Shown piece by piece: positions 8,121 to 31,487 of a DNA stretch of 64,000 nt. A model generated the notes under the pieces. That model was given only the letters and a program-made list of their open reading frames with translations, searched no databases and was not told the origin of the DNA. The stretch covers positions 1 to 64,000 of the forward strand of contig CAIWCD010000037.1 in the NCBI GenBank assembly GCA_903911145.1. The letters are read 5' to 3'. The translations under genes and the position numbers were made by a program. The stretch comes from an uncultured delta proteobacterium (GTDB lineage: Bacteria; Myxococcota; Myxococcia; Myxococcales; 40CM-4-68-19). How positions within the stretch are numbered: position 1 is the stretch's first letter; every line of letters starts with the position of its first letter.

Positions 8121-9434
8121 TCAAGCGCGACGAATCCATGCTGCCGCGAAGAAGCCATCGGTGTCGTGCCGATGTGGCAGCGCCAGGAAGAATCGTTTGT
8201 ATGCAAACGATCGATCAAGCCAGCCTGCGCCGGGCTCCACCGATATGAACTGGCTTTGGCTGCGCTCGAAGGCGTCGGCGACCTCTTCGTTTTCGGCGCG
8301 GCGGATTGTGCAGGTTGCGTAGACGAGGCGGCCGCCGGGGCGCACGTGTGTGGCCGCGCGCGCGAGGATCTCGCTCTGAAGCGCGGGGAGTGTGCAGAGA
8401 GATGTCCGGTCGATTCGCCAGCGCGCGTCGGGCCCGCGGCGGAGCGTGCCGAGTTCGGAGCAGGGCGCATCGACGAGCACGCGGTCGACGAGCAGGCCGG
8501 GCGCAAGCGAGTCGAGCAACTCGATGCAGCGCGCGCCTGCCCGCTCTGCGCGGACGCGAAGACGGTCGAGGCGCGAACGATCAGGGTCGGTGCAGATCAC
8601 GCGCCCATGCAGGCCCACTGCTGCGGCGAGCTGCATCGACTTGCCTCCCGCACCCGCGCAGAGATCGAGAACGGTCTCTCCGGGCGCGGCCTCAAGCAGT
8701 TCGCCGAGCAGTTGGCTCCCCTCGTCCTGCACTTCGAAGAGTCCAGCTCGATACGCGGGAGACGCGAGCAGGTTCGGGCGGGCGCTCTTCACGCGCAGGC
8801 CATCGCGCGCGTAGGTGCAGGGCGTGGTCTCGATACCTTCGGTGCCGAGGATACTCGCGAGGGCGCTGCGATCGGTGCGGAGTCGATTCGCGCGCAGGAA
8901 GACCGGGCCGGGGCGCGAGACGTGCTGCGCGAACTGCTCTGCCTCACTGCTCGCGTTGAGATGGTTGGCACTCAAAGCATCTGCACCCAGCTCTTCTGCG
9001 AGGAGTGACCAGAGCCAATCGGGAAACGAATTTCGCTCGGCGCCGGTGCGCGGGGTGGCCTGCGCGGGAGGTTGCGCGGCGCCACTGAGTTCGACTGCGC
9101 GCGCATCATCGACACCGCCGAGATCGCGCAGCAGAGAGCAGAGCAGGGTGGTTGCGTGCGGCGCGACTGTTCTTGCCGCGTCGTCGTCATGCCAATCGAG
9201 ACTCGCGTGAGCAGCAAGACGGCGCCGCCAGAGTGCAACGCCGAAGATGGCTTCGACGACCGCGGTGCGTTGCGAAGAGGAGAGCTTGCGGTTGGAGCGC
9301 AGCAGACGGTCGATACTGCGCTCGGCACTCTGTCCCTCGAGTACGCGGGTGAGCGCGTCGATGCAGAGCGGCCCGAGTCCATCGAGCGCATTCCAGTCGA
9401 CACCGCGCAGGCGCGCGGCCGCATCTCCGCTCAC
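8121..9434 (-). CDS. rsmB: 16S rRNA m5C methyltransferase, RsmB/Sun family
   Basis: A 437-residue protein. It should use S-adenosylmethionine to methylate a 16S rRNA cytosine (C967 in E. coli). The N-terminal ~150 residues are helical and resemble the NusB-like RNA-binding part. The AdoMet site is VLDLCAGAGGKSMQLAA, followed by the catalytic pair of motifs typical of m5C enzymes: VLVDAPCSELGTLRR (the PCS cysteine) and YATCTIRRAENEE (the TCT cysteine). A C-terminal DGFFAAAWIRR is the usual end of the family. Its GTG start overlaps the TGA of the ABC transporter gene by four bases, so it is the last gene of that minus-strand run. Assignment to RsmB rather than another Sun-family member is likely but not certain. 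Confidence 0.85.
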   Translation of the reverse strand: MSGDAAARLRGVDWNALDGLGPLCIDALTRVLEGQSAERSIDRLLRSNRKLSSSQRTAVVEAIFGVALWRRRLAAHASLDWHDDDAARTVAPHATTLLCSLLRDLGGVDDARAVELSGAAQPPAQATPRTGAERNSFPDWLWSLLAEELGADALSANHLNASSEAEQFAQHVSRPGPVFLRANRLRTDRSALASILGTEGIETTPCTYARDGLRVKSARPNLLASPAYRAGLFEVQDEGSQLLGELLEAAPGETVLDLCAGAGGKSMQLAAAVGLHGRVICTDPDRSRLDRLRVRAERAGARCIELLDSLAPGLLVDRVLVDAPCSELGTLRRGPDARWRIDRTSLCTLPALQSEILARAATHVRPGGRLVYATCTIRRAENEEVADAFERSQSQFISVEPGAGWLDRSFAYKRFFLALPHRHDTDGFFAAAWIRRA

Positions 9435-11305
9435 GGACGATAGCCCTCGGCCTGCAGCGCAAAGAGATGCGCATAGCGTCCGCCGCGCGCGAGCAGCGAC
9501 GCGTGATTGCCGAGTTCCTCGATCTGTCCGTCGCGAATGAGCGCGATCCGATCGGCCGTGCGCACGGTCGAGAAGCGATGGCTGATGAAGATGGCGGTGC
9601 GATCCTTCGCCAGTTCGTGAAGGCGCTGCAGCAGATCATGCTCGGCCTCCGCATCGAGGCTCGAGGAGGGTTCATCGAGAATGAGCAACTCGGCGTCGCG
9701 CATGAACGCCCGCGCGAGCGCGAGCTTCTGCCATTGCCCGCCCGAGAGTTCCTGGCCCTCCTCGAACCATCCACCCAACATCGAGTCGAGACCGTGCGGC
9801 AGTCGATCGATGACGGGCCGCGCTCCGCCGCGATCGACCGCCTGCTCGATGCGCGCGCGGTCGTCGATGTGCGCGACTTCTCCGAGTCCGATGTTCTCCG
9901 CGGCAGTGAATTGATAGCGGACAAAATCCTGGAACAGCACGCCGATGCGCATTCGAAGCTCGAGCGGATCGAGATCGCGGATGTCGACGCCGCCGTAAAG
10001 GATCGCGCCTTCGGTTGGATCGTAGAGGCGCAGCAGCAGCTTGATCAGCGTGCTCTTGCCGGCGCCGTTGTCACCGACGAGCGCGAGTTTCTCTCCGGGC
10101 GCGATGACGAGATTGATGTGGCGAAGCGCCCAGCGCTCGTTCGCCGGTTGGCCCTCCTGCGCGGGGTAGCGGAAGGAGACGTCGCGCAGTTCGAACGCCA
10201 GCGATGCGCCGCGAGGAAGCGTGAGCGCGGGCTGCGCGCGCGGAGCTTCGCCCGAGGCGATGTCGAGATAGCCGAAGAGATTGGTGATGAAGAGGCCGTT
10301 CTCGTAGAGGCTTCCGACCGAGCCGAGCAGCGATTGGAACGACTGCTGGCCGAGTCGGAAGAGCGAAAGGTAGAGCGTCAGATCTCCGAGCGAGATGCGT
10401 GCGTGGGCCGCCTTGTCTGCCATCGCGGCATACGAGATGTAGAACGCGATCAGCGAGAGCGCTCCGAGAACGAGGCCCAGCGCGGTCCGGCGGATCGCGA
10501 GGCGTTTGTCCTCTGCGTAGAACTTCTCGTAGAGCGCGCGATATCGCTTGAGCACCATCGGCGCGAGATTGAAGAGCTTGACCTCTTTGACGTGCGAGTC
10601 GCGCGTGAGAATCCACTCCAGATAGCTGAGCCGTCGCCCCTCGGGAGCGCGCCAGGAGTTGAGCCGGAAGGCTTCGCCCGACGCACGCGCCTCGGCGAAG
10701 AACGCAGGCAGCGATGCGGCGGCGATCACCAGCACGCTCCACCACGACAGGTGCCAGAGCAGCACCGAGTAGCTCGCGAGCATGATCAGCTGCTGGCCGA
10801 GCGAGAAGAGCTCGAGCACCAGCTGCAGCGGCCGCGTCGAGGCCTCCCGGCGCGCGTTCTGCATCTTGTCGTAGAACGCCGCATCTTCGAAGTGGCGCAG
10901 AGAGAGCGTCGCCGCCTTCTCGACGATCATCATGTTGACGTGATTGCCGAGCGTCGCGCGCAGCAGTTCGCGCAGAAGGCTCTGGATGCGCGCGAAGAGT
11001 GTCTGCGCGGTGACGAGCGCGAACTCGAGCGCAACGAGCTTCAGCACGCGACGCTGATCGAGCGCCGTTCCGCTCTTTGCAGAGAGCACGACCGCGTCGA
11101 CGATCAGCTTGCCGACCCACGCCATCGCGCCCGGCAGCAGCGCCTGCCCGAGCAGGACGCCGAGCAGCGAGGCCGCGAAGCCGCGCGAAGAGTCGCGCAC
11201 GAGCGTGAGTACGCGCGGGGCGATGCGCAGAGATTCGCGCGTTCGCGTGAGCCGCTCGCGCAGCGGCACACGCTTCTCTGGACTCTTCGGCTTCGGCGGA
11301 GGCAT
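9431..11305 (-). CDS. ABC exporter, fused membrane and ATPase domains
   Basis: A 624-residue half-transporter of the MsbA/HlyB type, expected to work as a homodimer. The N-terminal half carries about six hydrophobic segments (for example LLGVLLGQALLPGAMAWVGK and SYSVLLWHLSWWSVLVIAAA). The ATPase half has Walker A GDNGAGKST near residue 415, a Q-loop (FQDFVRYQ), the signature LSGGQWQKLALARAF, Walker B LLILDEPSSSLD, and the switch His in FISHRFSTV. The substrate cannot be read from sequence; the class includes lipid, peptide and drug exporters. It starts 44 bases after the giant surface lipoprotein gene and overlaps rsmB, suggesting co-transcription with the surface genes upstream. Confidence 0.88.
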   Translation of the reverse strand: MPPPKPKSPEKRVPLRERLTRTRESLRIAPRVLTLVRDSSRGFAASLLGVLLGQALLPGAMAWVGKLIVDAVVLSAKSGTALDQRRVLKLVALEFALVTAQTLFARIQSLLRELLRATLGNHVNMMIVEKAATLSLRHFEDAAFYDKMQNARREASTRPLQLVLELFSLGQQLIMLASYSVLLWHLSWWSVLVIAAASLPAFFAEARASGEAFRLNSWRAPEGRRLSYLEWILTRDSHVKEVKLFNLAPMVLKRYRALYEKFYAEDKRLAIRRTALGLVLGALSLIAFYISYAAMADKAAHARISLGDLTLYLSLFRLGQQSFQSLLGSVGSLYENGLFITNLFGYLDIASGEAPRAQPALTLPRGASLAFELRDVSFRYPAQEGQPANERWALRHINLVIAPGEKLALVGDNGAGKSTLIKLLLRLYDPTEGAILYGGVDIRDLDPLELRMRIGVLFQDFVRYQFTAAENIGLGEVAHIDDRARIEQAVDRGGARPVIDRLPHGLDSMLGGWFEEGQELSGGQWQKLALARAFMRDAELLILDEPSSSLDAEAEHDLLQRLHELAKDRTAIFISHRFSTVRTADRIALIRDGQIEELGNHASLLARGGRYAHLFALQAEGYRP

Positions 11306-11349
11306 GCGGCGGCTCTTCTAACCGGCGTCGACGCTCCGCGCGATCCGGA

Positions 11350-14300
11350 TCAGTGCAGCTCGAGCGCGCCCAGTGCTGGCGGGTTCGCGCGCGTCGCCCC
11401 GAGCAGGTCCGTCGCGCTTGCGGCCGCATGGCTGCCGATGCCGCGCAGTGGCGAGCCCACCGCGAGTCGATAGGCCGCGTACGGATCGCTGTTGGAGTTC
11501 GGCTCGAAGGACGGGGCGAGGGCCACCACGCTGTTCTGCGCAATCGGACCATCCTGCGAATCGCTGAAGGTCACGCTGAGCGCGAGCGGCATCACCGACC
11601 ATCCCCCCCACGAGCCGGTGGTCGCGAGCGCGCCGTGCGGAGAGATGTTGTTCCAGAGGATGCTGTTGACGATCTGCAACTGAAGACCGGGCGTTGGTCC
11701 GAACTCCTCGAGCATTCCGACGGTCTCGTAGTTGGAGATGTTCTGCGTGAACGTGCAGCCGTCGATAATTGCGCTGCCGTTGGCGTCATTCGCGATCGGC
11801 TTGAAGAGAATGGCGCCGCCACGCCGGTAGTCGAACTGCGCTCCGCCCTGTCCTGAGCTGAGGATTGCATTTCCCGCGAAGAGTGAGTCGCGAACGTCGA
11901 GCGTCGCTGCGCCGTCGATGGCGATTCCGCCGCCGTTGAAGCCGACTGCAACGTGGTTGTTGAGGAACGAAGTGCGCAGGATGTCGAGCGTGCCGATGCT
12001 CTGCGCGAACGCGCCGCCGCCGCTGCCCCAGAGCACACCGACTCCGTTGGTGCCGTTTGCGGAGAATGCGGAGTCGGTGATCGCGAGTCTCGTGGCGCCG
12101 CTGACCGAGAGTCCGCCTCCGATCGCGCCCGCCATGTTGCCGTTGAACGTGGTCGTGGAGATCTCGACGTCGCCGCTGGCCTCGAGGAACAGACCGCCGC
12201 CGCGACCGCCACTGGAGCCGCCGATCTGGTTTCCGATGAAGTTCGTGTTGGTGACGGTCGCGTTTCCGACCGCCGTCGCCATGATCGCGCCGCCCGAGTA
12301 GCCGCTCGCGTGATTGGCCTGGAATGACGAGTTGCTCACGATCAGATTTCCGATGTCCTGGATGTGGATCGCGCCGCCGTGGAGGACTGCGTTGCCTGAG
12401 TCGCCGTTGCGGCTGAACGTGCTGCTGTCGATGGTGAGTGCTGCGCTGTCGCGGACGGCGAGCGCTCCTCCTGCCGCGTAGTTTCCGACGTTGTCCGCGA
12501 ACGTGTCGTTCTGCAGCAGCATCGTCGTTGCAGTCGCGACTCCTCCGGTGACCGACGCGCCGATGTATCCGGCGCCGCCGACGAAGCCGCGATTGGACGT
12601 GAACGAGGAGTTGGTGATGCCCAACTTGGCTGCGCCGCGGATGAAGAACGCGCCGCCGATCTCCATCGCGCCGCCGACGTTGCCGGAAACCGAGAAGGTG
12701 TCGAGCGAGACCTGCGTGATGTCGTCGATGCCGAACGCGCTGCCGCCATTGAGTTGGCCGTGGCGCAAGACCTGGTTGCCGATGGTGATGCCGCTCAGCG
12801 AGACCTTCGCTCCGTTGCGAAGATAGAGGCTGCTCGGCATCGAACCCGACTGGTTGCGCTCGAAGTCGCACGACGTGATCGTGCTCTGCGCGACACCGTC
12901 GTTGAAGAGTCCGCCGAAGAGAGTGCCGCCGAGGTTGTCGCTGATCGTGCACCCCGTGAGCGAGAACTGCGACAGATCCTGATTCGCCATTGCCGCACCG
13001 TTCGATCCGGTGATGGTGAGATCGGTGACGGTGGTGTTGCCTGGCGAGCCCGCGGATCCCGTGCCGAGACCGAATTGACCTGAATAGGCCGACGGGCAGA
13101 TCGGGCTCTCTGCTCGTTCAGTCGTGCCCGAGGACAACACCACGCAGTTGAGCAGCGCGCCGCTTCCTGCCGAGTCGCTCGAGATGGTGTTGTTGGTGAA
13201 GATCGCCTTCGAGAGCGTGAGCGAGTTGTAGTCCTTGGTGAAGAGAGCGCCAGCCCCGAACTGCGCGGCGTTCCCAACGAACTGCACGCTCGAGATGTTG
13301 AGCGCCCCGATGTACGAGCTGTAGACCGCGCCGCCGCCGCCGCCGCTGTTGCTCTCGAAGTCCATCGTGTCCATGCCCACCGAGGCGAGTTGGACCTCGG
13401 CGATCGCGCCGCCCGCAGCCGTGGCCGTGTTGCCGGTGAACGCCAGGTGCGCGAGCGAGAGGGCGCTGCTCGACTGGTCGCCGATGACGAAGATCGCGCC
13501 GCCGCTGCCGAGCAGCGCCTGGTTCGCCGTGAAGGTCGTGTTTGTCGACGTCAGCGAGGTGAGCCCGTTGAGGTAGAGCCCGCCTGCTTGATTCGAGGAA
13601 TTGCTTTGGAGCGCCGAGTTGGTGAGCGTGAACGCTCCGATCTGGTAGGCCGCGATCGCGCCGCCAAGACCGCCTTCGCCGTTGTCCGCGGTGCCCAGGT
13701 TGGTCGCGACGTTGTTCGAGGCGGTGAGCGAGTCGATCGAGAGCGTGTCGATGTCCTTGAAGTACATCGCACCGCCTTCGCGCTGGCTCGAGTTGCCGGT
13801 GAAGGTCAGGTTCGCGAGCGTCGCGTTCGTGATGTGTCCGGCCGCCGCGGCGAGGCCAGCATTGACATCGCGCTGCTCAGCTCCTCGCAGGTAGAGCGCG
13901 CCGCCGAGGTAGGCGTTGATGGTGTCGGCGTTGAACCGCGACTGGTTGTTGCCAACGAACTGGCTGCTGGTCACGTTCACGGTGCCCACGCCGATGTGCC
14001 AGACCGCGCCGCCTTCTGCGAGCGCGCTGTTCGTTTCGAACGCCGAGTTCATGAGCACGAGGGCGAGCGTGTCCGCGCTGAAGATGGCGCCGCCCACTCC
14101 GCCGATGGACTTGTTGCTCCGGAAATCCGAGCTTGCGATCGAGAGCTGGCTCTGGCCGGTGGCGTGGATTGCGCCGCCATCCTGCGTCGCGCTGTTGCTG
14201 TTGAAGACGCTCGCAGAGATGACCAGGTCTCCGCTGTCGACACCGATCGCGCCGCCGTTCTGCGCGGTGTTGTGCTGAAAGAGGCAGCGGCGAACGATGA

Positions 14301-17300
14301 GGTTTCGCGCGCCCGTCGCGATCAATCCGCCGCCGATGCTGCTGGTGGCCGCGCCACCCGTGACGACGAAGCCATCGAGGATCGCGTTGCTTGCTCCGGT
14401 GACGACGTGGCTCGAGACGCCGAGTCCGTCGAGCGTGGTGACGGCCGTCGGCAAGCCGGTTGTCGAATCGAGCGCGCGCTGGGCGAGTGAAGCCTCGCTG
14501 CCGACGAAGCCGCCCGCGACGGTCACTCCTGCGCGCAGGTGGAACGTGTTGCTCGGCGTGCCGCCCGGAAACGTCCAGTGTCCCTGCTCGACGAAGACGG
14601 AGCAGACGCCATCGGCGCGGGTCGCCGCGGTGTTGCCCGCGAGATCGATTGCGCTCTGCAGATTTCCCATCGCCTTCGCCCACGTCATGCCGTCGCCGGT
14701 TCCGCCAAGAGCCGCGTAGACGATGCAGGGGATGCTGTTCTCGACGATGAGATCGGGCGCAACGAGAATGTCCTGCGTGGTGGTGCCGCTGAGCCCGGTG
14801 TCGTCGGTGACGGTGAGTGCGACCGTGAAGGTGCCGCCGCTGGTGGCGCTTCCCGTGTACGCGGCGGAGAAGCTGACGGCCGCGCCGCTGTTGCTCGAGA
14901 GCGTCGCGGTTCCTCCTGAGGGAATTGAGATGATCGACCAGGCATAGGTGAAGCTCTTGTTCCTCAGTGTGCCGTTGTTGCAGCTGTCATCGGGATCTCC
15001 CGCCTGCGCGCTGAGCGAGAGCGGCGCGTTGCTGTCGATGTCGAGAGCGCCGTTGTTGTCGGCGAGCAGTTGCGAACTGATGAGCGGCTGCGGCGCTTGG
15101 TTTCCGCACGCGTTCGTCGTCACGGTCTGTGTGGCCAGCGCCGACGTGCTGCCGAGCGCGTCGGTCACCACCAGGCCGATCTGGTAGGTGCCGAACGCAT
15201 CGGGCACGAACGAGGGCGATGCCGCGCTGGGGCTGCTCAGAATCGCGCGGCTCCCTTGCGGCACCGAGAGAAGCGTCCAGCTGTACGTGTCGGGCGTGAG
15301 TACCGCGCCAGCGCAGAGTGCGGCGTTGGCCGAGTCATCGATCGCGGCCGAGAGCGCGACGAGTTCGCCCTTGTAGAACGGGTTGGCCCCATCGTCGGGG
15401 TTCGCTGCGCTGATCACGACCCCGGGCGTCGACATTGACGTCGTGCAGGTGGTGGCGTTGATTCGCATCTTGCCGGGCGCGCTCGCGACTCCGCTCGGGA
15501 CTGCGGTCGCGACGACGCTCACTTCGTAATCCGCGGACGCACCTTGTGACGGTGCAGTTGCGATGAACGTGTCCGCGTTGCTGGTCGAGACTCCGAGCGT
15601 GGCGCTGCCGCCGACAGGCCGCTGCGAGATGCTCCACGCGTAGGTGAAGTTCGAGACGGCGAAGCGGGCGGGGCAGCTGGTGTTGTCTGCGTCGCTCACG
15701 ACGGCGAGGAGCGGCGCCGGGATGCTGGTGCTGATCGCGATGGGCGAGGCGTGCGAGGGCTTGGCGGGGTTGCCACTGAGCGGCGGACCGAGGAGCGAGA
15801 CGGTCGGCGCGTTGCCTCCGCAGCTGCTGACAGAGAGGGAGAACGTGGTGGTCGGCGTCGAGTTGCCGAGTGCATCGGTGACAACGAGGGAGACCTGGTA
15901 GCTGCCGGGCAGGTCGGGCACGAAGATCGGGCTCGCGGCTGTCGGCGAGCTGAACTGCGCGTGGCTTCCCGCCGGAGAGGAGACGAGCTGCCATTGATAC
16001 ACATTGGGCGTGAGTGTCACATTCGTTCCGCAGCGGGCGGCGTCGCCATTGGGATCGGAGAAATGCGACAGCAGCGTCACCTGGCTACCCGCGTAGGCCG
16101 TCACGGTGCTGCCGAGGTCGGGGTCGCTGATGCTCGCGGTGACCGGATTGACGCCCCAGTTGAGCGGGACGCCGCCGCACATCGCGACCGTGATGGTGAT
16201 GAAGACGGGATCCGACGCATAACCGAGCGCGTTGGTGACGACGAGGCCGAGCTGGTAGCTGCCCGGCTTGTCGAACGTGATCGACGGCGTGCTCGCGCTC
16301 GGATTGCTCAGCGTCGCCTGGCTCCCGTTCGGTTCGGACACGATGGACCATCGATACGTGTTGGTCGTGCCGTTCAGAGCGGGATTGCAGTTGTTGGTCG
16401 TGATGCTGCCGGCCTTGAACGTCACGGTCTGGCCGATGTTCGTGCTCGTCAGCGTGTTGTTCGGCGCGTTCTGGTACGCGGATGGCGCGCCGACGATCGG
16501 TCCGACCTCGCTGCAGGTCGAGTTGACCTGGACGTTGACTGTGGCGGGCGCGGAGCTCATTCCGGTCGAGTCGATGGCGATCACATTCAATCGATAGAGC
16601 CCGGGTACGTCGGGGGCAAAGCCTGCGTACGCCGCCCCGCCGACGACCGGCGACTGATCGCAGCGAGTCGCATCGGGAATGAGAGCGCTGGACGCGGCGG
16701 GATGCTCCGCGAGCGACCAGAGGCACGAGACCGTCTGCGCAGCTCCGCAGCTGCCGCCGATGTCCGCGTCGGCTGCGGTGGCGGTGAGTCCGGTGAGCGC
16801 GATGAAGGGCGTGGCGTTCGAGTAGACGGCTTGCGCGACGCTGAGCGTGGGCGCGTTGGCGCCGCAGTTCGTTGCGGTGAACGAGACGAAGGCCGGCGCC
16901 GACGAGAGGCCCGTCGAGTCGGTTGCGATCGCGCTGAACTGGTAGGCGCCAGGCACGTCGGGCACGAAGTTCGTTGCGGGCGCGGTGCCGTTGGTCGTCG
17001 AAGCCGTGACGGGATTCGCGAGCACGGCGTTGCTGTTCGGGGGACGCAGCACGAGCGTCCAGGTGACGTGGGAAGACTGCAGCGTGCCCGGCGAGCAGGC
17101 GCCGACGTTGTCGGCATCGCTCCAGGTCGCTGAGAGCGCCACTGTCTGTCCGGGATTCGGCGAGCTGCCCACGGCCGCTGAGCCAGGCTTCTCGCTCGTC
17201 GTCAGCATCATCGGCGCGCTCAATCCGCAGCTGCTCACCGTGACAGTCTTGTAGCGGGGCAAACTCGCGCGTCCGGTCGAGTCGGTCACCACGAGCTGGA

Positions 17301-18873
17301 TCTGATACGAGCCGGGCTTGTCGGCGACGAACTGTGCGCCGCTTGCAGCGCTCGCGCCGGGATCGAGGACGAACGCGTTGCTCCCGCTCGGTCGCTGCGA
17401 AACGCTCCACGCGTAGCTGAACGTCTGACCCATCGCGCAGCCCGGCGAGGGCGCGTTGTCCGCGTCGCTGAAGAGAGCCGTGAAGGAGACGGTGTCTCCG
17501 GGATTCGGCGTCCCCGAAGGTCCGTCAATCTCGCTGATGATCGGGGTGGCCGTGCCGCAGTTTCTCACGACGATCGGAGGCGAGACGTCGATGGGGCCGC
17601 TCTTGAGTCCGGACGAGTCGGTGACGATCAGCTCGGCGACATAGGTGCCCGCGACGTCGGCGGTGAAGGTCGGATTCTCGCTGGTCGTGTTGTTGAGCGC
17701 CGCGATGCTGCTCGCGGGCAGTGCGCGCAGAGACCACGCGTAGGTGAAGGTCTGCGCGAGATCGCAGCCGGGCAAGGCGTTGTCGAGATCGGAGACGCTC
17801 GCCACCAACTGGATGGAGCTGCCGATCGAGGGCGCGGCAGGCAAGTACGAGATGGTCGCTGTGGGCGCGTGGCCGCCGCAGTCGGTCGCCGTGACCAACA
17901 CCGTCTGGGGCGCGCTGGCGTGGCCGGCCGAGTCGGTGACGATGAGTTGGAACGTGTACGCGCCGGCAACGTCAGGCGTGAAGCTCGGATTCATCGCGCT
18001 GCTGCTGTTGAGCGTGGCGCTTGAGCCGGTCGGGAGCGAGACGACGCTCCAGGCATAGGTGAACGTCCGGCCGAGATTGCAGCCTGGCGCAGCCGCGTTG
18101 TCCGCGTCGGTGACGACGGGCGTGAGCTGATCCTGCTGGCCGAGTCCGGGCTGCTCGATGCTCGCTGCGATCGAGGTGATCACCGGCACGTTCGAGCCGC
18201 ACGCGGTCACCGTCACCGTGATCGTTCCGGGCGTGCTTGCGAGGCCGGTTGAATCGGTGATCACGAGGCTGATGCCGTAGTCGCCAGCGACATCGGCCGT
18301 GAAGGTCGGCGCAAGCGCGGTCGGGTTGTTGAGCTTGGCGATGCTCGCAGGTGGCTGCGAAGCGATCCGCCAGGCGTAGGCTTCCCGCTGCGCCAATCCA
18401 CATGCGACGTCGTTATCGAGGTCATCTGCTTGAGGTGCGCTCAGCGTGACCGACGTGCCGACTCCGGGGGCCGCGGGCGAGGCAGCGAGAACTCCCGTCG
18501 TGGGCGCATTCGCTCCGCACTGCGTGACGACGACATGCATCGTCACAGGGCGGCTGGCGAGATAGGAGTTCGAGACAATCAACTGCACCGTGAACGTGCC
18601 AGGCACATCCGCGGTGAAGCTCGGCGTCACCGAGCGTGGATCATTGAACGTGGCGTGACTTCCACTCGGCAGTCCCGCGAAGCTCCACTCGTAGATGAGC
18701 GGGCGGCCCTGCGGCGAGATGCTCTTGCTGCCATCGAGTTGCACGGCGGTGCCGACCGCGATGCCGCTCAGGTCGGGCCCCGCATTCGCGGTGGGCGTGC
18801 CGACGGGCGTTGAGCAGGCGACGATCGCGAGGACGAGCGTTGCGGTGCAGAGGCGGCGCAGATTGAGCAGCAT
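11350..18873 (-). CDS. Giant PKD-repeat and parallel beta-helix surface lipoprotein (2507 aa)
   Basis: The N-terminus (MLLNLRRLCTATLVLAIVAC) ends in a lipobox-like IVAC, so the protein is probably lipid-anchored. Residues of about 25-1370 hold twelve PKD/Ig-like modules of ~110 residues. Each carries a variant of FTYAWS..., a P-F-D/S-F-V-P-D-x-P-G-x-Y block and a closing V-T-D-S-x-G, and most new modules open with CGxxAP. From about residue 1380 the protein changes to a right-handed parallel beta-helix with dozens of GGAI/GGGL turns and N/S-x-A ladders, as in Pmp-type proteins and pectate lyases. It ends with a choice-of-anchor-Q-like tail (LLGATRANPPALGALEL). Family knowledge suggests adhesion or glycan binding; no catalytic residues are obvious. 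AAAGGG precedes the ATG. Confidence 0.85.
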   Translation of the reverse strand: MLLNLRRLCTATLVLAIVACSTPVGTPTANAGPDLSGIAVGTAVQLDGSKSISPQGRPLIYEWSFAGLPSGSHATFNDPRSVTPSFTADVPGTFTVQLIVSNSYLASRPVTMHVVVTQCGANAPTTGVLAASPAAPGVGTSVTLSAPQADDLDNDVACGLAQREAYAWRIASQPPASIAKLNNPTALAPTFTADVAGDYGISLVITDSTGLASTPGTITVTVTACGSNVPVITSIAASIEQPGLGQQDQLTPVVTDADNAAAPGCNLGRTFTYAWSVVSLPTGSSATLNSSSAMNPSFTPDVAGAYTFQLIVTDSAGHASAPQTVLVTATDCGGHAPTATISYLPAAPSIGSSIQLVASVSDLDNALPGCDLAQTFTYAWSLRALPASSIAALNNTTSENPTFTADVAGTYVAELIVTDSSGLKSGPIDVSPPIVVRNCGTATPIISEIDGPSGTPNPGDTVSFTALFSDADNAPSPGCAMGQTFSYAWSVSQRPSGSNAFVLDPGASAASGAQFVADKPGSYQIQLVVTDSTGRASLPRYKTVTVSSCGLSAPMMLTTSEKPGSAAVGSSPNPGQTVALSATWSDADNVGACSPGTLQSSHVTWTLVLRPPNSNAVLANPVTASTTNGTAPATNFVPDVPGAYQFSAIATDSTGLSSAPAFVSFTATNCGANAPTLSVAQAVYSNATPFIALTGLTATAADADIGGSCGAAQTVSCLWSLAEHPAASSALIPDATRCDQSPVVGGAAYAGFAPDVPGLYRLNVIAIDSTGMSSAPATVNVQVNSTCSEVGPIVGAPSAYQNAPNNTLTSTNIGQTVTFKAGSITTNNCNPALNGTTNTYRWSIVSEPNGSQATLSNPSASTPSITFDKPGSYQLGLVVTNALGYASDPVFITITVAMCGGVPLNWGVNPVTASISDPDLGSTVTAYAGSQVTLLSHFSDPNGDAARCGTNVTLTPNVYQWQLVSSPAGSHAQFSSPTAASPIFVPDLPGSYQVSLVVTDALGNSTPTTTFSLSVSSCGGNAPTVSLLGPPLSGNPAKPSHASPIAISTSIPAPLLAVVSDADNTSCPARFAVSNFTYAWSISQRPVGGSATLGVSTSNADTFIATAPSQGASADYEVSVVATAVPSGVASAPGKMRINATTCTTSMSTPGVVISAANPDDGANPFYKGELVALSAAIDDSANAALCAGAVLTPDTYSWTLLSVPQGSRAILSSPSAASPSFVPDAFGTYQIGLVVTDALGSTSALATQTVTTNACGNQAPQPLISSQLLADNNGALDIDSNAPLSLSAQAGDPDDSCNNGTLRNKSFTYAWSIISIPSGGTATLSSNSGAAVSFSAAYTGSATSGGTFTVALTVTDDTGLSGTTTQDILVAPDLIVENSIPCIVYAALGGTGDGMTWAKAMGNLQSAIDLAGNTAATRADGVCSVFVEQGHWTFPGGTPSNTFHLRAGVTVAGGFVGSEASLAQRALDSTTGLPTAVTTLDGLGVSSHVVTGASNAILDGFVVTGGAATSSIGGGLIATGARNLIVRRCLFQHNTAQNGGAIGVDSGDLVISASVFNSNSATQDGGAIHATGQSQLSIASSDFRSNKSIGGVGGAIFSADTLALVLMNSAFETNSALAEGGAVWHIGVGTVNVTSSQFVGNNQSRFNADTINAYLGGALYLRGAEQRDVNAGLAAAAGHITNATLANLTFTGNSSQREGGAMYFKDIDTLSIDSLTASNNVATNLGTADNGEGGLGGAIAAYQIGAFTLTNSALQSNSSNQAGGLYLNGLTSLTSTNTTFTANQALLGSGGAIFVIGDQSSSALSLAHLAFTGNTATAAGGAIAEVQLASVGMDTMDFESNSGGGGGAVYSSYIGALNISSVQFVGNAAQFGAGALFTKDYNSLTLSKAIFTNNTISSDSAGSGALLNCVVLSSGTTERAESPICPSAYSGQFGLGTGSAGSPGNTTVTDLTITGSNGAAMANQDLSQFSLTGCTISDNLGGTLFGGLFNDGVAQSTITSCDFERNQSGSMPSSLYLRNGAKVSLSGITIGNQVLRHGQLNGGSAFGIDDITQVSLDTFSVSGNVGGAMEIGGAFFIRGAAKLGITNSSFTSNRGFVGGAGYIGASVTGGVATATTMLLQNDTFADNVGNYAAGGALAVRDSAALTIDSSTFSRNGDSGNAVLHGGAIHIQDIGNLIVSNSSFQANHASGYSGGAIMATAVGNATVTNTNFIGNQIGGSSGGRGGGLFLEASGDVEISTTTFNGNMAGAIGGGLSVSGATRLAITDSAFSANGTNGVGVLWGSGGGAFAQSIGTLDILRTSFLNNHVAVGFNGGGIAIDGAATLDVRDSLFAGNAILSSGQGGAQFDYRRGGAILFKPIANDANGSAIIDGCTFTQNISNYETVGMLEEFGPTPGLQLQIVNSILWNNISPHGALATTGSWGGWSVMPLALSVTFSDSQDGPIAQNSVVALAPSFEPNSNSDPYAAYRLAVGSPLRGIGSHAAASATDLLGATRANPPALGALELH

Positions 18874-18895
18874 GGACTTGCCCTTTCGGTGATGA

Positions 18896-18943
18896 CTGCA
18901 ATTGCAAAACGATGATTTGCGAATTCGATAATTTCGATAACGA
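18896..18943 (-). promoter_or_regulatory. AT-rich possible promoter/operator before the giant lipoprotein gene
   Basis: This short gap is strikingly AT-rich for the window. On the plus strand it holds two direct copies of TTCGATAA nine bases apart (18924-18931 and 18933-18940). It also has an inverted repeat GCAAA/TTTGC (18904-18908 with 18916-18920). No convincing -35/-10 pair was found. It could be a separate promoter with an operator for the giant gene, which would make expression of that gene adjustable apart from the three genes upstream. Confidence 0.3.
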
Positions 18944-18947
18944 AGTC

Positions 18948-20204
18948 TTAGAAGCTGTACGAGAAGCCGAGCGTGACGCCCTCTGCGAGTCGGATGACGT
19001 TGGCGAGCGTGAGGGCGTTGCCGGTGTAGTCGATTGAGAGCGCGTATCCTCCGGCGAGTGGCAGCGCGATGCCGGCGCTCCAGAGCGTCAGAGCGCGAGG
19101 CGCGCCGACTCCGGACTGCGTGGTGCTCTGCGCGAAGTTGAACGTGTAGCCGACGCGCAGGTGCGCCGAGACCGCGCTCGAGAGTTCAAACGATGCGCGC
19201 GCACCCGCCTCGAGGCCGAAGAGGTTGGTGGGGAACGCATCGTTCTGCAGGCGCAGGTAGCGCAGTTGCAACGTCGGCAGCAGCGCGAGACGGCCATCCG
19301 CGAGCAGGTGCGGCCCGAGATCGTAACCTGCTCCTGCTGCCGCTTCGTAGCGCTCCTCTCCGATGATGGTCGGCGCGCTCGCGCCTCCACTGCTCGCCGT
19401 GGTGTTGATCGCGTAGGGCTGCTTGTACGAGCGGAAATCGAAGGACGCGAGCAGCAGGAAATTCTGCGCGAGCACGCGGCTCGCCTCAGCGCGGAAGCGA
19501 AGCACGATGGCCGTGTCGGCGATGTACTTCTCGTCGCTGCGCTCGGCGCCGAAGTCGAACGCGACATTCCAGAGCGGCGTCTGGTTCGGCGGCGCGATCG
19601 CCTCCCCATGCGGCCCATGACGACCAACGCCAAAGTTGATGCGGGGATCTCCCGGCGGTGTCGGCAACACGCTTGCGGCGCGGGTCCGGCGCAGATCCAC
19701 GTTGGGCGAAGCGGGCTGTGCGGGCGTCGATGCTGTTGCACTCGGTGCCGCGGCGGTCGCGGCGGCAGGCGTCGATGTTGCGGGTGGTGCCGACTGCACG
19801 GAGCCCGCTCCTGGTGCGGTCGGGAGAACTGCGCCGGTTGTGGGCGTCGCGTCCTGCTTCGGTGCTGCGGCTTCAACAGTTGCTGCGGCCGCCATCGCTT
19901 TCGTTGCTTCGCCCGTGCTGCTCGCGGCGATTGAAGGCGAACCCGTCTGCGCGGCCTTCGTCTCTTTTCGCTCCTTCCCGTTGCGCGTGCGCTTGACGTC
20001 GTCCTTCCCCGACTTCTCCGTCGCGCTCGCCTTCGCGGTGTCGGCCTTCGCGCCGGCGGGAGAGGCATCACTCTTCGCCGCGACCGGAGCAGCGGTTCCG
20101 CCATCAAGAGGCTGCACTCGCTCCTGCGCCGCCGCAGCGTGCAGCGAGAGCAGCGCCGCTGCACCCATCACTCCCGCTCGCTTCATGAAGGTCTGGATGG
20201 TCAT
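18948..20204 (-). CDS. Outer-membrane beta-barrel protein with Ala/Pro/Lys linker
   Basis: A 418-residue protein of unknown function. A signal peptide (AGVMGAAALLSLHAAAA) is cleaved near residue 26. A ~170-residue low-complexity stretch rich in Ala, Thr, Pro and Lys follows (partly charged, KSGKDDVKRTRNGKERKE), and could span or bind the peptidoglycan. The last ~200 residues alternate polar and hydrophobic positions in strands (WNVAFDFGAERSD, FLLLASFDFRSYKQP, AHLRVGYTFNFAQST) and end in ...TLGFSYSF. A terminal aromatic residue is the usual signal for insertion by the BAM machine. The ATG at 20204 has GAGG upstream; a second Met six codons in lacks a ribosome site. It lies 8 bases after the Cys-repeat lipoprotein gene. 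Confidence 0.8.
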   Translation of the reverse strand: MTIQTFMKRAGVMGAAALLSLHAAAAQERVQPLDGGTAAPVAAKSDASPAGAKADTAKASATEKSGKDDVKRTRNGKERKETKAAQTGSPSIAASSTGEATKAMAAAATVEAAAPKQDATPTTGAVLPTAPGAGSVQSAPPATSTPAAATAAAPSATASTPAQPASPNVDLRRTRAASVLPTPPGDPRINFGVGRHGPHGEAIAPPNQTPLWNVAFDFGAERSDEKYIADTAIVLRFRAEASRVLAQNFLLLASFDFRSYKQPYAINTTASSGGASAPTIIGEERYEAAAGAGYDLGPHLLADGRLALLPTLQLRYLRLQNDAFPTNLFGLEAGARASFELSSAVSAHLRVGYTFNFAQSTTQSGVGAPRALTLWSAGIALPLAGGYALSIDYTGNALTLANVIRLAEGVTLGFSYSF

Positions 20205-20212
20205 GGGAGGCC

Positions 20213-22918
20213 TCACGGTGCTGAAAGGATGATGCGCTCGTAGGTCGTGCTGCCGCCGAGCGACTGCTTGTCGCCGCAGCGCGCGCCCGCCCCGAGGTCT
20301 CCGCCGCTGGTGAGCCAGCAGAGTCGTTGGCTGCCGAAGCCAGTTGCGTTCGAATCGGTGGCGCCGCCGATGTCGCAGGAGCCGCTGCTGCTGGTGAGAT
20401 CGATCTGCGCGCCTGCGGGTGCGAATCCCCAGGCGCGGTTGGTTGAGTACCAGCGCACGCCGTTCGCGCTCGTCGTCTGATTCCCGCTGGTCGCCATCGT
20501 TGCGCCAGCTCGATCGGCCGCGGCCGCGAGCAGCAGGCGCGGACTGCTCGCGAGGCGGCACCCCAGGATCAGCCGGGTGCCGCTGCAGTTCGAGAGCACG
20601 CTGGTGGCGATCGTGCCTGCGTTGCTGTCGTTGTAGGCGTCGACGAAGCAGACGCTGAATCCCGCCGTTGAAAGATCCGCGAGCGCCACGTTCTGCAGCA
20701 CCCCTGACGGGACACCCGAAGCTGCGGAGATACAGGCTGGGCCTGCGTTTCCCGTCGATGCGCAGAACGCGAGGCCGTGCGCGGCGCAGGAGTTTCCACA
20801 GCTGCCGCAGTTCTGCGCGTCCGTTGCTTCGCTGGCCTCGCAGCCGTTGGCGCCGTCACCGTCGCAGTTTCCGAAGCCGCTCGCGCAGCTCCAGGAGCAC
20901 TTGCTCGTGCTGCAGCTGCTGCTGGCGTTGTCGGGCGCAGCGCACGCGTTTCCGCAGGCGCCGCAGTTGGTCGCGCTCGAGGTGAGATCGGTCTCGCAGC
21001 CATCGCTCAAGGTCTGGTTGCAGTCGGCGAAGCCGGTCGCGCAGAGGGCAGCGCAGGTCTTGTTCGCGCAGACGGCGGTGCCGTTCGTGTACGGACCACA
21101 CGCCCCCCCGCAGCTGCCGCAGTTGTTGGGATCAATGCTGAGGTTGGTGCAGGCGCCGCCGCAAACGGCCGGGCAGCCGGGCTGGCAGCTTCCGAGCGAG
21201 CAGGTCTGGCCGCTGTCGCAGCCGTGACCGCACGTGCCGCAGTTCTTCGGATCGTTGTTGAGATCGAAGCAGAGTCCGTTGCAGCTCGACAGGCCGCTGC
21301 CGCAGCTGCTCTTGCAGCTTCCGCTCTGACAGACCTGCGCATCGAGGCAGAGGTGCGTCGTTTCTGTCCCCGCATCAGCGATGGCGACGCCGCAGCCGCC
21401 GCAGTTCTTCGCATCGATCTGGGTGTTCGCGCAGGCGCTGCCGCAGAGCTGCGCATTTGCGCCGCAGGTGGCCCCGCAATGTCCCGCGCTGCAGACCTGG
21501 CCGCTCGGGCAGAGCAGTCCGCATCCGCCGCAGTTGCGATTGTCGCTCGACGGGTCGACGCAGGTCTCGACGCCTCCATCGGTGCTGACTCCGGCATCCA
21601 GCGCGACGCCGCCGTCGGTGCTCACGACGCACAAGAGCGAGCCGCTCGGGCAGCTCGCCACGCAATGTCCCGCGCTGCACGACGCACCTGCGCCGCAGCT
21701 GTGGCCAGCGCCGCCGTCGATGCCTCCGCAGCCGCCGCAGTTGTTTCCGTCGACGCTGGTGCTCACGCAGGTCCCGCCGCAAGCCGCGAGGCCGTCGGGG
21801 CAGGAGAGGACGCAAGCGCCACCAACGCACGCCTCGAGCGCCGGGCAGCTCTTCCCGCACGCGCCGCAGTTTCCCGGGTCGCGCTGCGTGTCGGTGCAGC
21901 TCGACGCGGTGCCGCCGTCTGCCAGCAGGGCCGGGCATGCAGAGAGAGCGTCCTGGCAGCTGGGTGCGCACTGTCCGCCGGTGCAGCGCTCACCGGCCGC
22001 GCACGCGAGAGAGCAGCTGCCGCAATGATCGGAATCGCTCGAGACATCGACGCAGACGCCGTCGCATGCGCTCTGCGATGCGGGGCAGTTGGTGCGGCAG
22101 ATGCCCGACTGGCACGACTCGCCCGCCGCACAACTGTTGCCGCACGAACCACAGTTGAGCTGATCCGCGCCGACATCAACGCACGCGCTTGCGCCGTTCA
22201 CGGGGCAGGCCTGCGTGCCGCTCGCGCAGAGCAGCTGGCAGAGGCCTCCCGCGCAGCTCTCTCCGACGCGGCAGACCTTGCCGCACGAACCGCAGTTCTT
22301 GACGTCGCTCTGCTCGTTCACGCAGGCCGTGCTGCAGACAGAGAGAGGCGCGCCGCAGTCAGTCGTGCACGCACCGGCGACGCAGTAGTTGCCGCGCGGG
22401 CAGGCGTTCGCGCAGTCGCCGCAGTGCGCGAGGTCGCTCAGCTTGTCGACGCAGGACGCGCCGCAGAGTGCTTCGCCGCTCGGACAGAGAATCTCGCAGG
22501 CGCCCGCGACGCAGGCCTCTCCTGCTGGGCAGCTCTTTCCGCACGCGCCGCAGTTCGCCGCATCGCTCTTCAAGTCGCGGCAGGTTCCGCTGCAGTCGTC
22601 GAGAACGCCCGGTGTGCAGTAGGTCTTGCAGGCAGGCGCGCCCGGGGTCGTCAACGCATCGCAGGCCGCGCCCGGATCGCAGACGATGCCGCAGCCTCCG
22701 CAGTTGGCGCTGCTGTCGAACGAAACGCAATCCGAGCCGCACGCGTGCTCGGGCAGCGTGCACGTCGCCGCGAGATGGCAGAAGTGATCAGCGCCGCAGA
22801 AGTTGTTCGACTGGCACTGCGTGGAGTTCGTGCAGGCGACCGAGATCGTCGCGAGGTTCTGACAGCCCGCGATGGCGAACGCGAAGAGACAACCCAGCAG
22901 TTGCAGGCGGCGGCTCAT
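20213..22918 (-). CDS. Cys-rich repeat lipoprotein with about 14 Stig1-like modules
   Basis: A 901-residue protein starting MSRRLQLLGCLFAFAIAGC, a good lipoprotein signal (AIAGC). After a short Cys-rich head it carries about fourteen ~40-residue modules of the pattern C-G-x2-C-V-D/N-x5-D-x2-N-C-G-x-C-G-x2-C-x3-E-x-C-x2-G-x-C. These resemble the Stig1-like repeats that are common in myxobacterial surface proteins. The modules should be disulfide-locked into a rod. Residues of about 755-901 form a separate C-terminal domain without such repeats (VCFVDAYNDSNAGTIATSVL, RWYSTNRAWGFAP, ERIILSAP) that I do not recognise. AAAGG lies ~11 bases before the ATG at 22918; an upstream in-frame start would precede the signal peptide. 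It lies 23 bases after the PEGA gene. Confidence 0.83.
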   Translation of the reverse strand: MSRRLQLLGCLFAFAIAGCQNLATISVACTNSTQCQSNNFCGADHFCHLAATCTLPEHACGSDCVSFDSSANCGGCGIVCDPGAACDALTTPGAPACKTYCTPGVLDDCSGTCRDLKSDAANCGACGKSCPAGEACVAGACEILCPSGEALCGASCVDKLSDLAHCGDCANACPRGNYCVAGACTTDCGAPLSVCSTACVNEQSDVKNCGSCGKVCRVGESCAGGLCQLLCASGTQACPVNGASACVDVGADQLNCGSCGNSCAAGESCQSGICRTNCPASQSACDGVCVDVSSDSDHCGSCSLACAAGERCTGGQCAPSCQDALSACPALLADGGTASSCTDTQRDPGNCGACGKSCPALEACVGGACVLSCPDGLAACGGTCVSTSVDGNNCGGCGGIDGGAGHSCGAGASCSAGHCVASCPSGSLLCVVSTDGGVALDAGVSTDGGVETCVDPSSDNRNCGGCGLLCPSGQVCSAGHCGATCGANAQLCGSACANTQIDAKNCGGCGVAIADAGTETTHLCLDAQVCQSGSCKSSCGSGLSSCNGLCFDLNNDPKNCGTCGHGCDSGQTCSLGSCQPGCPAVCGGACTNLSIDPNNCGSCGGACGPYTNGTAVCANKTCAALCATGFADCNQTLSDGCETDLTSSATNCGACGNACAAPDNASSSCSTSKCSWSCASGFGNCDGDGANGCEASEATDAQNCGSCGNSCAAHGLAFCASTGNAGPACISAASGVPSGVLQNVALADLSTAGFSVCFVDAYNDSNAGTIATSVLSNCSGTRLILGCRLASSPRLLLAAAADRAGATMATSGNQTTSANGVRWYSTNRAWGFAPAGAQIDLTSSSGSCDIGGATDSNATGFGSQRLCWLTSGGDLGAGARCGDKQSLGGSTTYERIILSAP

Positions 22919-22941
22919 GCGCGACCTTTCTCGTGTCCGGT

Positions 22942-25941
22942 TCACAGGCTGGTGTTCCAGAACGCGATCGCGCCGATGATCAGCGCGCCGGCCGCGCCGA
23001 AGAGCACGTAGCCGATCGTCTGTTCGGTGCGCGCCTGGGAGAGCGTGCCTTGCGGATCGGAGAGCGGATGATTCGGATCCTGCGCCGAGTTGATGAGTGA
23101 GTTGGAATGCACAGTGAGGCCCGCGCCGGTGGCCGCCGCGACGACCGCGCCGCCGATCGAGATGTAGCTGAGCAGGTGATTCTTCTCTGTCGGAGGCAGT
23201 TGCAGAGTCGGCGCGAGCCCGAGCGCCTCCGGTGGTGCAGCGAGTAGAGTCGCATCGACTGTCGCGGCTCCCTTTGCAGGCGCGGCCTCGTCGATGATCA
23301 CTGCGTTGGGCAACTCAGGAGCACCGCTGCGCGCAGGGCCGTTCTCCGAGCTGTCGTACGCCTCGAGATAGTAGGCAAACCCATCCGTGATCGCCTTGCC
23401 CGGGATCTCGACGCCGTACTGATCGGTGCCGATCAGCGCCAGCGGTGCGCAGCTGTAGTCCGTCTTGAACAGGTTCTTCCAGCAGGCCTGCGGGTTCGCC
23501 ACGTCGCTGCGCTCATCGACGATGCGCGCGGTCAGACGGAGCGGCTGTCCGCGAAGCGCGTGTGCGACCGGCGTGTGCGTGACGACGGGAGGATCGGTGT
23601 CTTCATCCGGTGCGCCGACGGGCGCAGCCGGCTGCTTCGCACTCGCGGTTGCTTCGGTCGCGCTGGTTGCGGCAACTGGCGCGCTGCTCGTCGGAGCCGC
23701 CGAGTTCACAGCCTGAGCGCCGGAGGCCGGCTTGCTCGCTGGTGCCGAGACCGCGGGCTGTGCTCCGCTCGCTGGCGCGACGGAGAATGCCGCGATCGAC
23801 TTGTTGCTCTCTGCGATTGCGACCTGCGGCAACTCTGCCACCGCTGCCGCGTGCGTTTCACTCGGCGCAATCTGCGCCGCTGCCAGCGTGGTCTGCCCGC
23901 GCGTCGGGTCGAGCTGCAGCTCGCAGTAGGCAAGAAAGCGCTCGGCGTCGCCGCGCATCTTCGAGTCCGGAGCGTCCTTCAGGAACGCGCGATAGGCATC
24001 AGCGGACTCCTGCCATTCGCCCGCGCGTCGCCGCGTCTGCGCGATGTTGTAGAGGAGATCGGGCAGCGGCTTGAACTCGTACGCGCTCTGGTAGGCCGCC
24101 AGCGCGCACTTCCAATCCCCTTGCCGATAACAAGCCGCAGCTCGCGTGAGTTGCGCACGCGCGAGTTCGATCGCTTCCGGCGCGGCGTGCTCCTCGGTGT
24201 TTCCACGGACCGGCTTCATCGAGACCGCCATGCGCAGCTCGAAATCCTTGCTGTCCGGAAGGTTCACCTTGCCCGTGCGCGGAATGTAGCCATCGAGCGT
24301 GATGCGCAGATCGTGAGGACCGGGACGGCTGCGGACCTTGATGGGCGTGACTCCGGCGACGCGACCATCGACGGAGAGCACTGCACCCGGAGGGTCCGAC
24401 GCGACGGCGATCAGCGGCGGCGTGCGCTCTCCGCTTCCCTGCTGGAGCGCGAGGCGCAGCGAGAGTTGCTGCCCCGGCTCGAGAGAGATCGCCTGCTGCA
24501 GGCTGCTGAATCCTTCGCGCGACACATCGAGCACGTGATCGCCCGGCTCGACATCGCCCGTGTAGGGCGAGTTGCCGACCTTCTTGCCATCGACCGACAC
24601 CGACGCGTCCGATGGATCCGTCTCGATGCGCAGCTTCCCGGGACCAGGCGCGCGCGTCATCGTGAACGTGACGTCGGCGTCGCGGCCCGCGGCCATCGTG
24701 ACTTTGCGCTCCTCATCCTTGAAGCCATCGAGGTGAAGCGAGACACGGTGTTCGCCGACCTTCAGCTCATCGCTCCACGGCGTGCCTCCCAACTCCTTGC
24801 CATCGATCGAAATGGTCGCTCCCGAGGGTTGAGAGCTGACCGTCAGGCGCGGCACGCCGCTCGCGGAGCCGGCGGGAAGCACGAGCCGCATCGAGAGATC
24901 GCGGTCCTTCGGCATCGTCAAAGTGGTCGCGACGCTGCGGTGTCCGTCGAGCTTGAGCAGCAGTTGGTGGCTTCCGGCGACGAGCGGCCCGACCCACGGC
25001 GTGCGTCCGCGCTCCTTATCGTCGAGCGTGAGCAGCGCGCCCGATGGCTCGGACTCCACCGAGAGCGCCGGCTCCTTCGGCAGCAGCGGCAGCACGAACG
25101 AGAGCTGCACATCGCGTCCTGGCTTGATGACGAGCAGACGTTCCTGGTGGAGGCGCCCGTCTGCGTCCGCCGCGATCACGTGCTGGCCGGGCGAGACGAT
25201 GCCCGTGTAGGGCGCATCGCCGAAGAAGGCGCCATCGAGAGAAATGTGCGCGCCGGACGGCTCGGAGACGACGGAAAGAGAGGTCGGCGCGACCGGCTCT
25301 CCTGGCGTCGCCGCGGTAGCGGAGAGCGGCAGATTGATAGCGAGCTTCTTGCCACCGGAGCGGACGTCAAGCTGCTGCTCCGCGGTGTGCCCATCGGCGC
25401 CGGTGACCGTGATCGTGTGCGAGCCGGGATCGAGCGTGATGTTCAACGGCGTGACGCCCGCCGACTTGCCGTCGATCTTCACGTCGGCGCCAGTCACGTC
25501 GCTGCTGATCGTGGCGGCAACGGGGCTCGGCGGTGGGTCGAACGCGTCGATGCGGAAGGGCTGCTGCGGAGAGCCCGCGCGACCGATCGAGCCGTCGTCT
25601 CCGCGCGTCTCGATGAAGTACTCGAGCGCGCCGTCGTTGAGCAGCGACGCGGGCAGATGGCCGGTGAAGTGGCCGCCTTTCGCTTCGACCATCGAGAAGC
25701 CCTGGTAGCGCGACTGCCCGACTTTGCGCGCGTAGATCTGCGGAGCGAACAGCTGCGAGGCGTTGTCGATCTGCGCCTTGATCTGCACGGGTTGCCCGCG
25801 CGCAGACTTGTCGACCGGCTTGTGATCGATGTGATTGGCCGCCCTCGAATTCGCGCCTGCGGACGTGTGGGCCGCGTCGCTGCGCGCACCCGACGGATTC
25901 GGGGCGGCGAGTGCGAGGAGAACTGCGGCTGCGACAAACAT
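22942..25941 (-). CDS. PEGA-repeat envelope protein with TPR-like segment and C-terminal membrane helix (999 aa)
   Basis: A signal peptide (MFVAAAVLLALAAP) leads into an Ig-like domain (ARGQPVQIKAQIDN...YFIETRGDDGSIGRAGSP). Six PEGA modules follow, each centred on SxPSGAxxxxDGxxxGxTP and ending GxHxxxxxxxG. A TPR-like helical stretch (CYRQGDWKCALAAYQSAYEF, YNIAQTRRRAGEW) comes next, then an Ala/Pro/Ser linker. A second copy of the N-terminal domain type follows (LRGQPLRLTARIVDE...YYLEAYDSSENGPARSG), and finally a membrane helix (IGYVLFGAAGALIIGAIAFW). PEGA modules are known in surface and peptidoglycan-associated proteins. GGAG sits 7 bases before the ATG at 25941. It is the first gene of the four-gene envelope run. 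Confidence 0.85.
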   Translation of the reverse strand: MFVAAAVLLALAAPNPSGARSDAAHTSAGANSRAANHIDHKPVDKSARGQPVQIKAQIDNASQLFAPQIYARKVGQSRYQGFSMVEAKGGHFTGHLPASLLNDGALEYFIETRGDDGSIGRAGSPQQPFRIDAFDPPPSPVAATISSDVTGADVKIDGKSAGVTPLNITLDPGSHTITVTGADGHTAEQQLDVRSGGKKLAINLPLSATAATPGEPVAPTSLSVVSEPSGAHISLDGAFFGDAPYTGIVSPGQHVIAADADGRLHQERLLVIKPGRDVQLSFVLPLLPKEPALSVESEPSGALLTLDDKERGRTPWVGPLVAGSHQLLLKLDGHRSVATTLTMPKDRDLSMRLVLPAGSASGVPRLTVSSQPSGATISIDGKELGGTPWSDELKVGEHRVSLHLDGFKDEERKVTMAAGRDADVTFTMTRAPGPGKLRIETDPSDASVSVDGKKVGNSPYTGDVEPGDHVLDVSREGFSSLQQAISLEPGQQLSLRLALQQGSGERTPPLIAVASDPPGAVLSVDGRVAGVTPIKVRSRPGPHDLRITLDGYIPRTGKVNLPDSKDFELRMAVSMKPVRGNTEEHAAPEAIELARAQLTRAAACYRQGDWKCALAAYQSAYEFKPLPDLLYNIAQTRRRAGEWQESADAYRAFLKDAPDSKMRGDAERFLAYCELQLDPTRGQTTLAAAQIAPSETHAAAVAELPQVAIAESNKSIAAFSVAPASGAQPAVSAPASKPASGAQAVNSAAPTSSAPVAATSATEATASAKQPAAPVGAPDEDTDPPVVTHTPVAHALRGQPLRLTARIVDERSDVANPQACWKNLFKTDYSCAPLALIGTDQYGVEIPGKAITDGFAYYLEAYDSSENGPARSGAPELPNAVIIDEAAPAKGAATVDATLLAAPPEALGLAPTLQLPPTEKNHLLSYISIGGAVVAAATGAGLTVHSNSLINSAQDPNHPLSDPQGTLSQARTEQTIGYVLFGAAGALIIGAIAFWNTSL

Positions 25942-31484: not shown

Positions 31485-31487
31485 CGA

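Follow-up and report, generated by a model that had tools for sequence, protein, structure and literature searches.

A conserved myxobacterial gene cassette that may encode a barrel-anchored surface lipoprotein

A PEGA-TPR protein (P1), an outer-membrane beta-barrel (P3) and a giant PKD lipoprotein (P4), joined in some genomes by an optional Cys-rich lipoprotein (P2), probably make up a complex for display and anchoring at the cell surface; we put the probability at about 0.55. In this complex, P4 would be exposed at the surface, bound by the barrel and used in adhesion. The reading builds on features taken from the sequence: the linkage of the genes, a gene fusion, loss of the genes as a block, replacement of the P4 head, and the lipobox. 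No published description of the cassette was found in literature searches.

RESULTS

Layout of the locus

The window, which is the whole stretch of 64,000 nucleotides analyzed here, contains six consecutive minus-strand open reading frames at 8121-25941, separated by gaps of 23, 8, 74 and 44 bases and one 4-base overlap. Re-reading of the open reading frames confirmed this arrangement, which had been described in an earlier note on this DNA. No terminator-like site was found at any junction of the six-gene run. The features are as follows.

22942..25941, minus strand: P1, periplasmic PEGA(x6)-TPR protein with a beta-sandwich at both ends and a C-terminal two-TM hairpin
20213..22918, minus strand: P2, STIG1/MXAN_6577-like Cys-rich lipoprotein with 124 Cys and lipobox AIAGC; optional component
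18948..20204, minus strand: P3, signal peptide, low-complexity linker of ~150 residues and 10-stranded outer-membrane beta-barrel
18951..19670, minus strand: conserved barrel domain of P3 (alignment A1)
11350..18873, minus strand: P4, giant lipoprotein of 2507 aa with lipobox AIVAC and Ser at +2; PKD stalk and beta-helix head
14707..18804, minus strand: P4 stalk, ~12 PKD/Ig-like repeats, 11 of them bearing paired Cys
11353..14706, minus strand: P4 head, PMP-like right-handed beta-helix with no counterpart in the family relatives searched
9431..11305, minus strand: MsbA-type ABC transporter, syntenic flank gene outside the cassette
8121..9434, minus strand: RsmB 16S rRNA methyltransferase, flank, outside the cassette
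26172..27353, plus strand: FemAB-like protein, divergent conserved flank and marker of the orthologous site in relatives

The earlier note had described the first four proteins as large, exported and built of repeats. This does not fit the barrel P3, a protein of 418 aa that has a low-complexity N-terminal part rich in Ala, Pro and Lys and is not built of repeats.

Two further groups of genes lie nearby. At 2629-8105 on the plus strand, convergent with the cassette genes, a cellulose synthase BcsA-BcsB fusion (GT2, PilZ and BcsB in one open reading frame) is followed by a GH8 gene. At 27706-32588 on the minus strand, genes for a type III polyketide synthase (chalcone-synthase-like), an ICMT-type methyltransferase, an AMP-binding enzyme and a FAD-binding protein stand in a row and are likely a small polyketide cluster.

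A conserved cassette and its flanks

The genome of the window (G000) was compared with relatives of its family (G001-G011), nearly all of them fragmented assemblies. The family gene order, pieced together from these fragmented contigs, is FemAB-ClpS-MFS (divergent) and then P1-(P2)-P3-P4-(more giant PKD/Fn3 lipoproteins)-amidohydrolase-DUF4476 protein-ABC-rsmB. P1, P3 and P4 share one contig in all ten testable family genomes (G000, G001, G002, G004-G009 and G011), and in G010 the pieces of the cassette are spread over separate short contigs. Searches found neither P1 nor P3 anywhere in the genome of G003 (the genome searches for P1 used its TPR/C-terminal part as the query). At the G003 site, FemAB and the amidohydrolase are 389 bases apart, and the ABC gene and rsmB are in their usual place. 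Because G003 keeps both flanks without the block, the P1-P4 block has been gained or lost independently of ABC and rsmB. The ABC gene is also present in genomes of other families that have no barrel match. Judged by this synteny, P1, P3 and P4 are a conserved cassette that was lost as a block in G003, and the six genes are not one system. A six-gene operon including the exporter was ruled out by the empty site of G003 and by the ABC gene in cassette-less genomes; rsmB is a housekeeping gene.

The earlier note had proposed a multi-layer envelope structure, perhaps with its own exporter, and had named unlinked genes in relatives as a result that would speak against it. P1, P3 and P4 were not unlinked, and the proposal is supported for genes 1, 3 and 4, which are linked in the testable family genomes and were lost jointly in G003; in five relatives, moreover, gene 1 is fused to gene 3. 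Gene 2 is optional, as P2 was found in 5 of 11 family genomes (G000, G001, G007, G010 and G011). The proposal does not extend to ABC and rsmB, and the idea of a dedicated exporter is not supported, since the ABC gene occurs without the cassette and stays in the empty site.

Additional giant PKD and Fn3/propeller lipoproteins lie between P4 and the ABC flank in G010 and G001 (loci L096, L101 and L103), which suggests an expanded set of surface lipoproteins. A search of genome contigs with a closer alignment returned no more than five MAG loci, whose titles name Deltaproteobacteria or Myxococcales; the hosts of the cassette are a group of mostly uncultured myxobacteria.

P1, its fusion to the barrel, and P2

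Pfam and NCBIfam analyses of P1 detected six PEGA domains (239.6 bits in total), a TPR region and a C-terminal TM hairpin. In five relatives, all without P2 (G002, G004, G005, G008 and G009), P1 and P3 form a single reading frame of 1020-1110 aa, and the barrel stands in place of the C-terminal TM hairpin of P1. P1 and P3 are separate in all five P2-bearing genomes and also in G006, where P2 is absent. The five-genome fusion is strong evidence that P1 and P3 would form a physical unit. On the barrel tree, the distribution of the fusion needs three changes; a single fused clade was not rejected (p-AU 0.38), so repeated independent fusion is not claimed. The AlphaFold2 model of the fused protein (pLDDT 77, pTM 0.31) consists of a beta-sandwich, a PEGA string, TPR helices, a second beta-sandwich, a disordered linker and the barrel; with a pTM of 0.31, the relative placement of the domains is unreliable. 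With its TM hairpin, P1 could reside in the inner membrane, which would set it apart from the fused form.

P2 matches NF041328 at 357.4 bits (cut-off 100) and thereby belongs to the MXAN_6577-like Cys-rich proteins, although it is much longer than the 145-position model and is encoded within the cassette. A second P1-P2 pair was detected in the same genome (G000:C28; L093 12853-10421 and 10421-7977, overlap TGATG), with no barrel or giant gene there, which makes P1 and P2 look like partners as well.

The barrel P3 and its neighbor across the class

The Pfam scan of P3 gave only OMP_b-brl at 20.0 bits (cut-off 28.7) and a weak Autotransporter match at 16.2 bits (cut-off 26), and no NCBIfam model matched. 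AlphaFold2 predicted a 10-stranded barrel (pLDDT 82.4, pTM 0.77). The best structural matches of this model in the PDB, mostly at 10-15% identity and a TM of about 0.5-0.7, were the EstA autotransporter, OpcA, the OmpT family and the Legionella Dot/Icm porin I. These are generic outer-membrane barrels, which settles the fold class but not the relationship. The barrel profile found no relative among the sequences of solved structures. Judged by these searches, P3 belongs to an unnamed barrel family.

PorP/SprF (PF11751) and SlipAM (PF04575) were both without a match on P3 in the Pfam scan, and the AlphaFold2 model has 10 strands rather than the 14 of PorP/SprF. Searches of the same genome for the SlipAM and PorP/SprF families gave no match, and neither did the control, so these searches carry no weight as to absence. 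Membership of P3 in T9SS or T11SS was rejected, as it has no profile match in the Pfam scan.

Across the class, the barrel profile detected 19 loci in 17 of 147 genomes. A PKD lipoprotein gene directly adjoins the barrel at 17 of the 18 loci that could be judged, the nineteenth locus (G010) being at a contig end; these loci belong to the window's own family and to families f3, f4, f6, f8 and f9. By chance, such adjacency would be expected at ~0.1-0.2% per locus, based on three P4-like places and ~4,700 genes, a number estimated from genome size, in the genome of the window. The sole exception, G002:C24 (L082 6969-8288), is a solitary homologue of the barrel whose N-terminal region is beta-sandwich-like; it lies upstream of a large gene of histidine kinase-like type. 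In families other than that of the window, homologues of the barrel have no PEGA/TPR part.

PEGA, Cys-rich and PKD proteins are numerous in myxobacteria, with 45 PEGA matches in this genome, and four unrelated envelope genes might simply have become neighbors by chance. The five-genome fusion, the block loss in G003 and the 17/18 barrel-PKD adjacency in six families speak against this, and we regard it as highly improbable.

Stalk, head and lipid anchor of P4

Pfam and NCBIfam analyses of P4 detected PKD domains and a POMP repeat. Residues 24 to ~1380 form ~12 PKD-type repeats, 11 of which open with a Cys (mostly CG-x-x-P) and carry another Cys ~40-50 residues on, and the last 1118 aa (about 1390-2507) form a beta-helix. 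The giant beta-helix lipoprotein of the earlier note is thus a lipoprotein with a beta-helix in its second half, and its first half is a PKD stalk. Matches to the stalk are widespread among relatives. The head had no match in the ten other cassette-bearing family genomes or in G003, in a search limited by the many P4 copies of relatives that are cut by contig ends; the C-termini of other family members are propeller-like or PKD/Ig. By this comparison, the head has been replaced between lineages. No solved-structure relative of the head was found by sequence, and no adhesion domain was identified. No C-terminal CTD sorting domain, as in T9SS type B cargo, was detected in the C-terminal half of P4, where a weak Chlam_PMP repeat was the only match.

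In M. xanthus, Lys at position +2 of the lipobox is an inner-membrane signal (PMC3222651). This Lys is absent from both P4 (AIVAC-S) and P2 (AIAGC-Q), as in outer-membrane lipoproteins. Directly after the lipobox, the mature N-terminus has the form C-x3-[VLI]-x-x-P in 11 of the 12 PKD lipoproteins encoded next to a barrel and in 2 of 57 other lipoproteins at the fetched loci; both of the latter carriers are PKD giants. The motif was chosen after inspection, and its carriers are homologous. The motif is a lead to a possible barrel-recognition site and may only reflect shared ancestry.

A conserved segment right after the lipidated Cys could also serve as the recognition signal of a translocator, in which the barrel and the PEGA/TPR brace would flip P4 to the outer face in the manner of SLAM/T11SS rather than act as a standing anchor. 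The barrel does adjoin a lipoprotein cargo gene, and the TPR region fused to it recalls TPR-barrel translocators; SLAM carries a TPR part. The missing SlipAM match on P3, the narrow lumen that a 10-stranded barrel would offer to folded PKD repeats, and the restriction of the PEGA/TPR part to the window's family make this reading unlikely, at perhaps one chance in four; P3 may also both anchor and translocate.

The BcsA-BcsB fusion and the GH8 gene next door might point instead to a SusCD-like outer-membrane pair that binds or takes up polysaccharide (cellulose or other glycans), and many carbohydrate-active proteins contain beta-helix or PKD domains. We consider this still less probable: no catalytic or carbohydrate-binding family was detected in P4, the cassette has no TonB-dependent receptor, 10-stranded barrels are not porin-sized, and the cellulose genes, which run convergently, did not appear in those cassette loci of relatives that were read.

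DISCUSSION

Proposed model

In the display and anchoring complex that we favor, P4 would be a lipid-anchored fiber composed of a paired-Cys PKD stalk and a head that can be exchanged and is a beta-helix in this genome. In the outer membrane, the narrow 10-stranded barrel P3 would hold P4, which would thus be tethered both by its own lipid and by P3. P1 would be a PEGA rod with a TPR platform that braces the barrel from the periplasm, and the Cys-rich lipoprotein P2 would act as an accessory. The complex likely serves in adhesion, be it to a surface, to matrix, to prey or to kin cells. A more specific version, which we offer tentatively and at somewhat below even odds, is a new display system of Myxococcales with parts unrelated to PorP/SprF or SLAM: the 10-stranded barrel would recognize giant PKD lipoproteins by their C-x3-[VLI]-x-x-P segment, hold them at the surface and couple them through the PEGA/TPR brace to the cell interior, with heads exchanged between lineages.

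Comparison with known systems

In PorE-PorP-PG1035 and SprF-SprB, a barrel binds and anchors a surface protein (PMC9143113; PMC12635249), and the PorP-like barrels have 14 strands and belong to the FadL family (PMC9143113). The cassette resembles PorE-PorP (T9SS, Bacteroidota) and SprF-SprB in its small outer-membrane barrel gene beside a giant repetitive surface protein, in a periplasmic TPR/carboxypeptidase-regulatory-like partner that forms a bridge towards the cell wall, and in multiple barrel-adhesin pairs per lineage. It differs in that the P3 model has 10 strands, PF11751 does not match P3, the P4 cargo is N-terminally lipidated rather than CTD-sorted, and P1 has no OmpA_C.

Within the same phylum, the Myxococcus proteins GltA, GltB and GltC are outer-membrane barrels and a periplasmic TPR protein that are encoded, with outer-membrane lipoproteins, in a polycistronic operon (PMC4488436). 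The gliding system of GltA/GltB/GltC with CglB/CglC shares with the cassette the combination of barrels, periplasmic TPR protein and outer-membrane lipoproteins; however, its barrels, set beside P3 here by description, are described as OmpA-like, and it has no PEGA and no giant PKD fiber. SLAM/T11SS is similar in the pairing of a barrel with lipoprotein cargo and in the TPR-barrel architecture of the fused form, whereas P3 lacks SlipAM and has 10 modeled strands, and no TbpBBD domain was detected in the cargo P4.

The anatomy of the cassette parallels PorE-PorP, SprF-SprB and GltC-GltAB-CglB, and a fiber held by a barrel is the reading that we favor. Such a fiber would make a convergent counterpart to the SprF-SprB and PorE-PorP anchors of Bacteroidota. 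A barrel beside a lipoprotein, sometimes fused to a brace, is a concrete and genetically defined pair that bears on how giant lipoproteins reach and stay on the myxobacterial surface, and the barrel profile is a handle for finding further fibers of this kind. In this reading, the cassette is a variant of barrel-anchored surface fibers with an unnamed barrel family.
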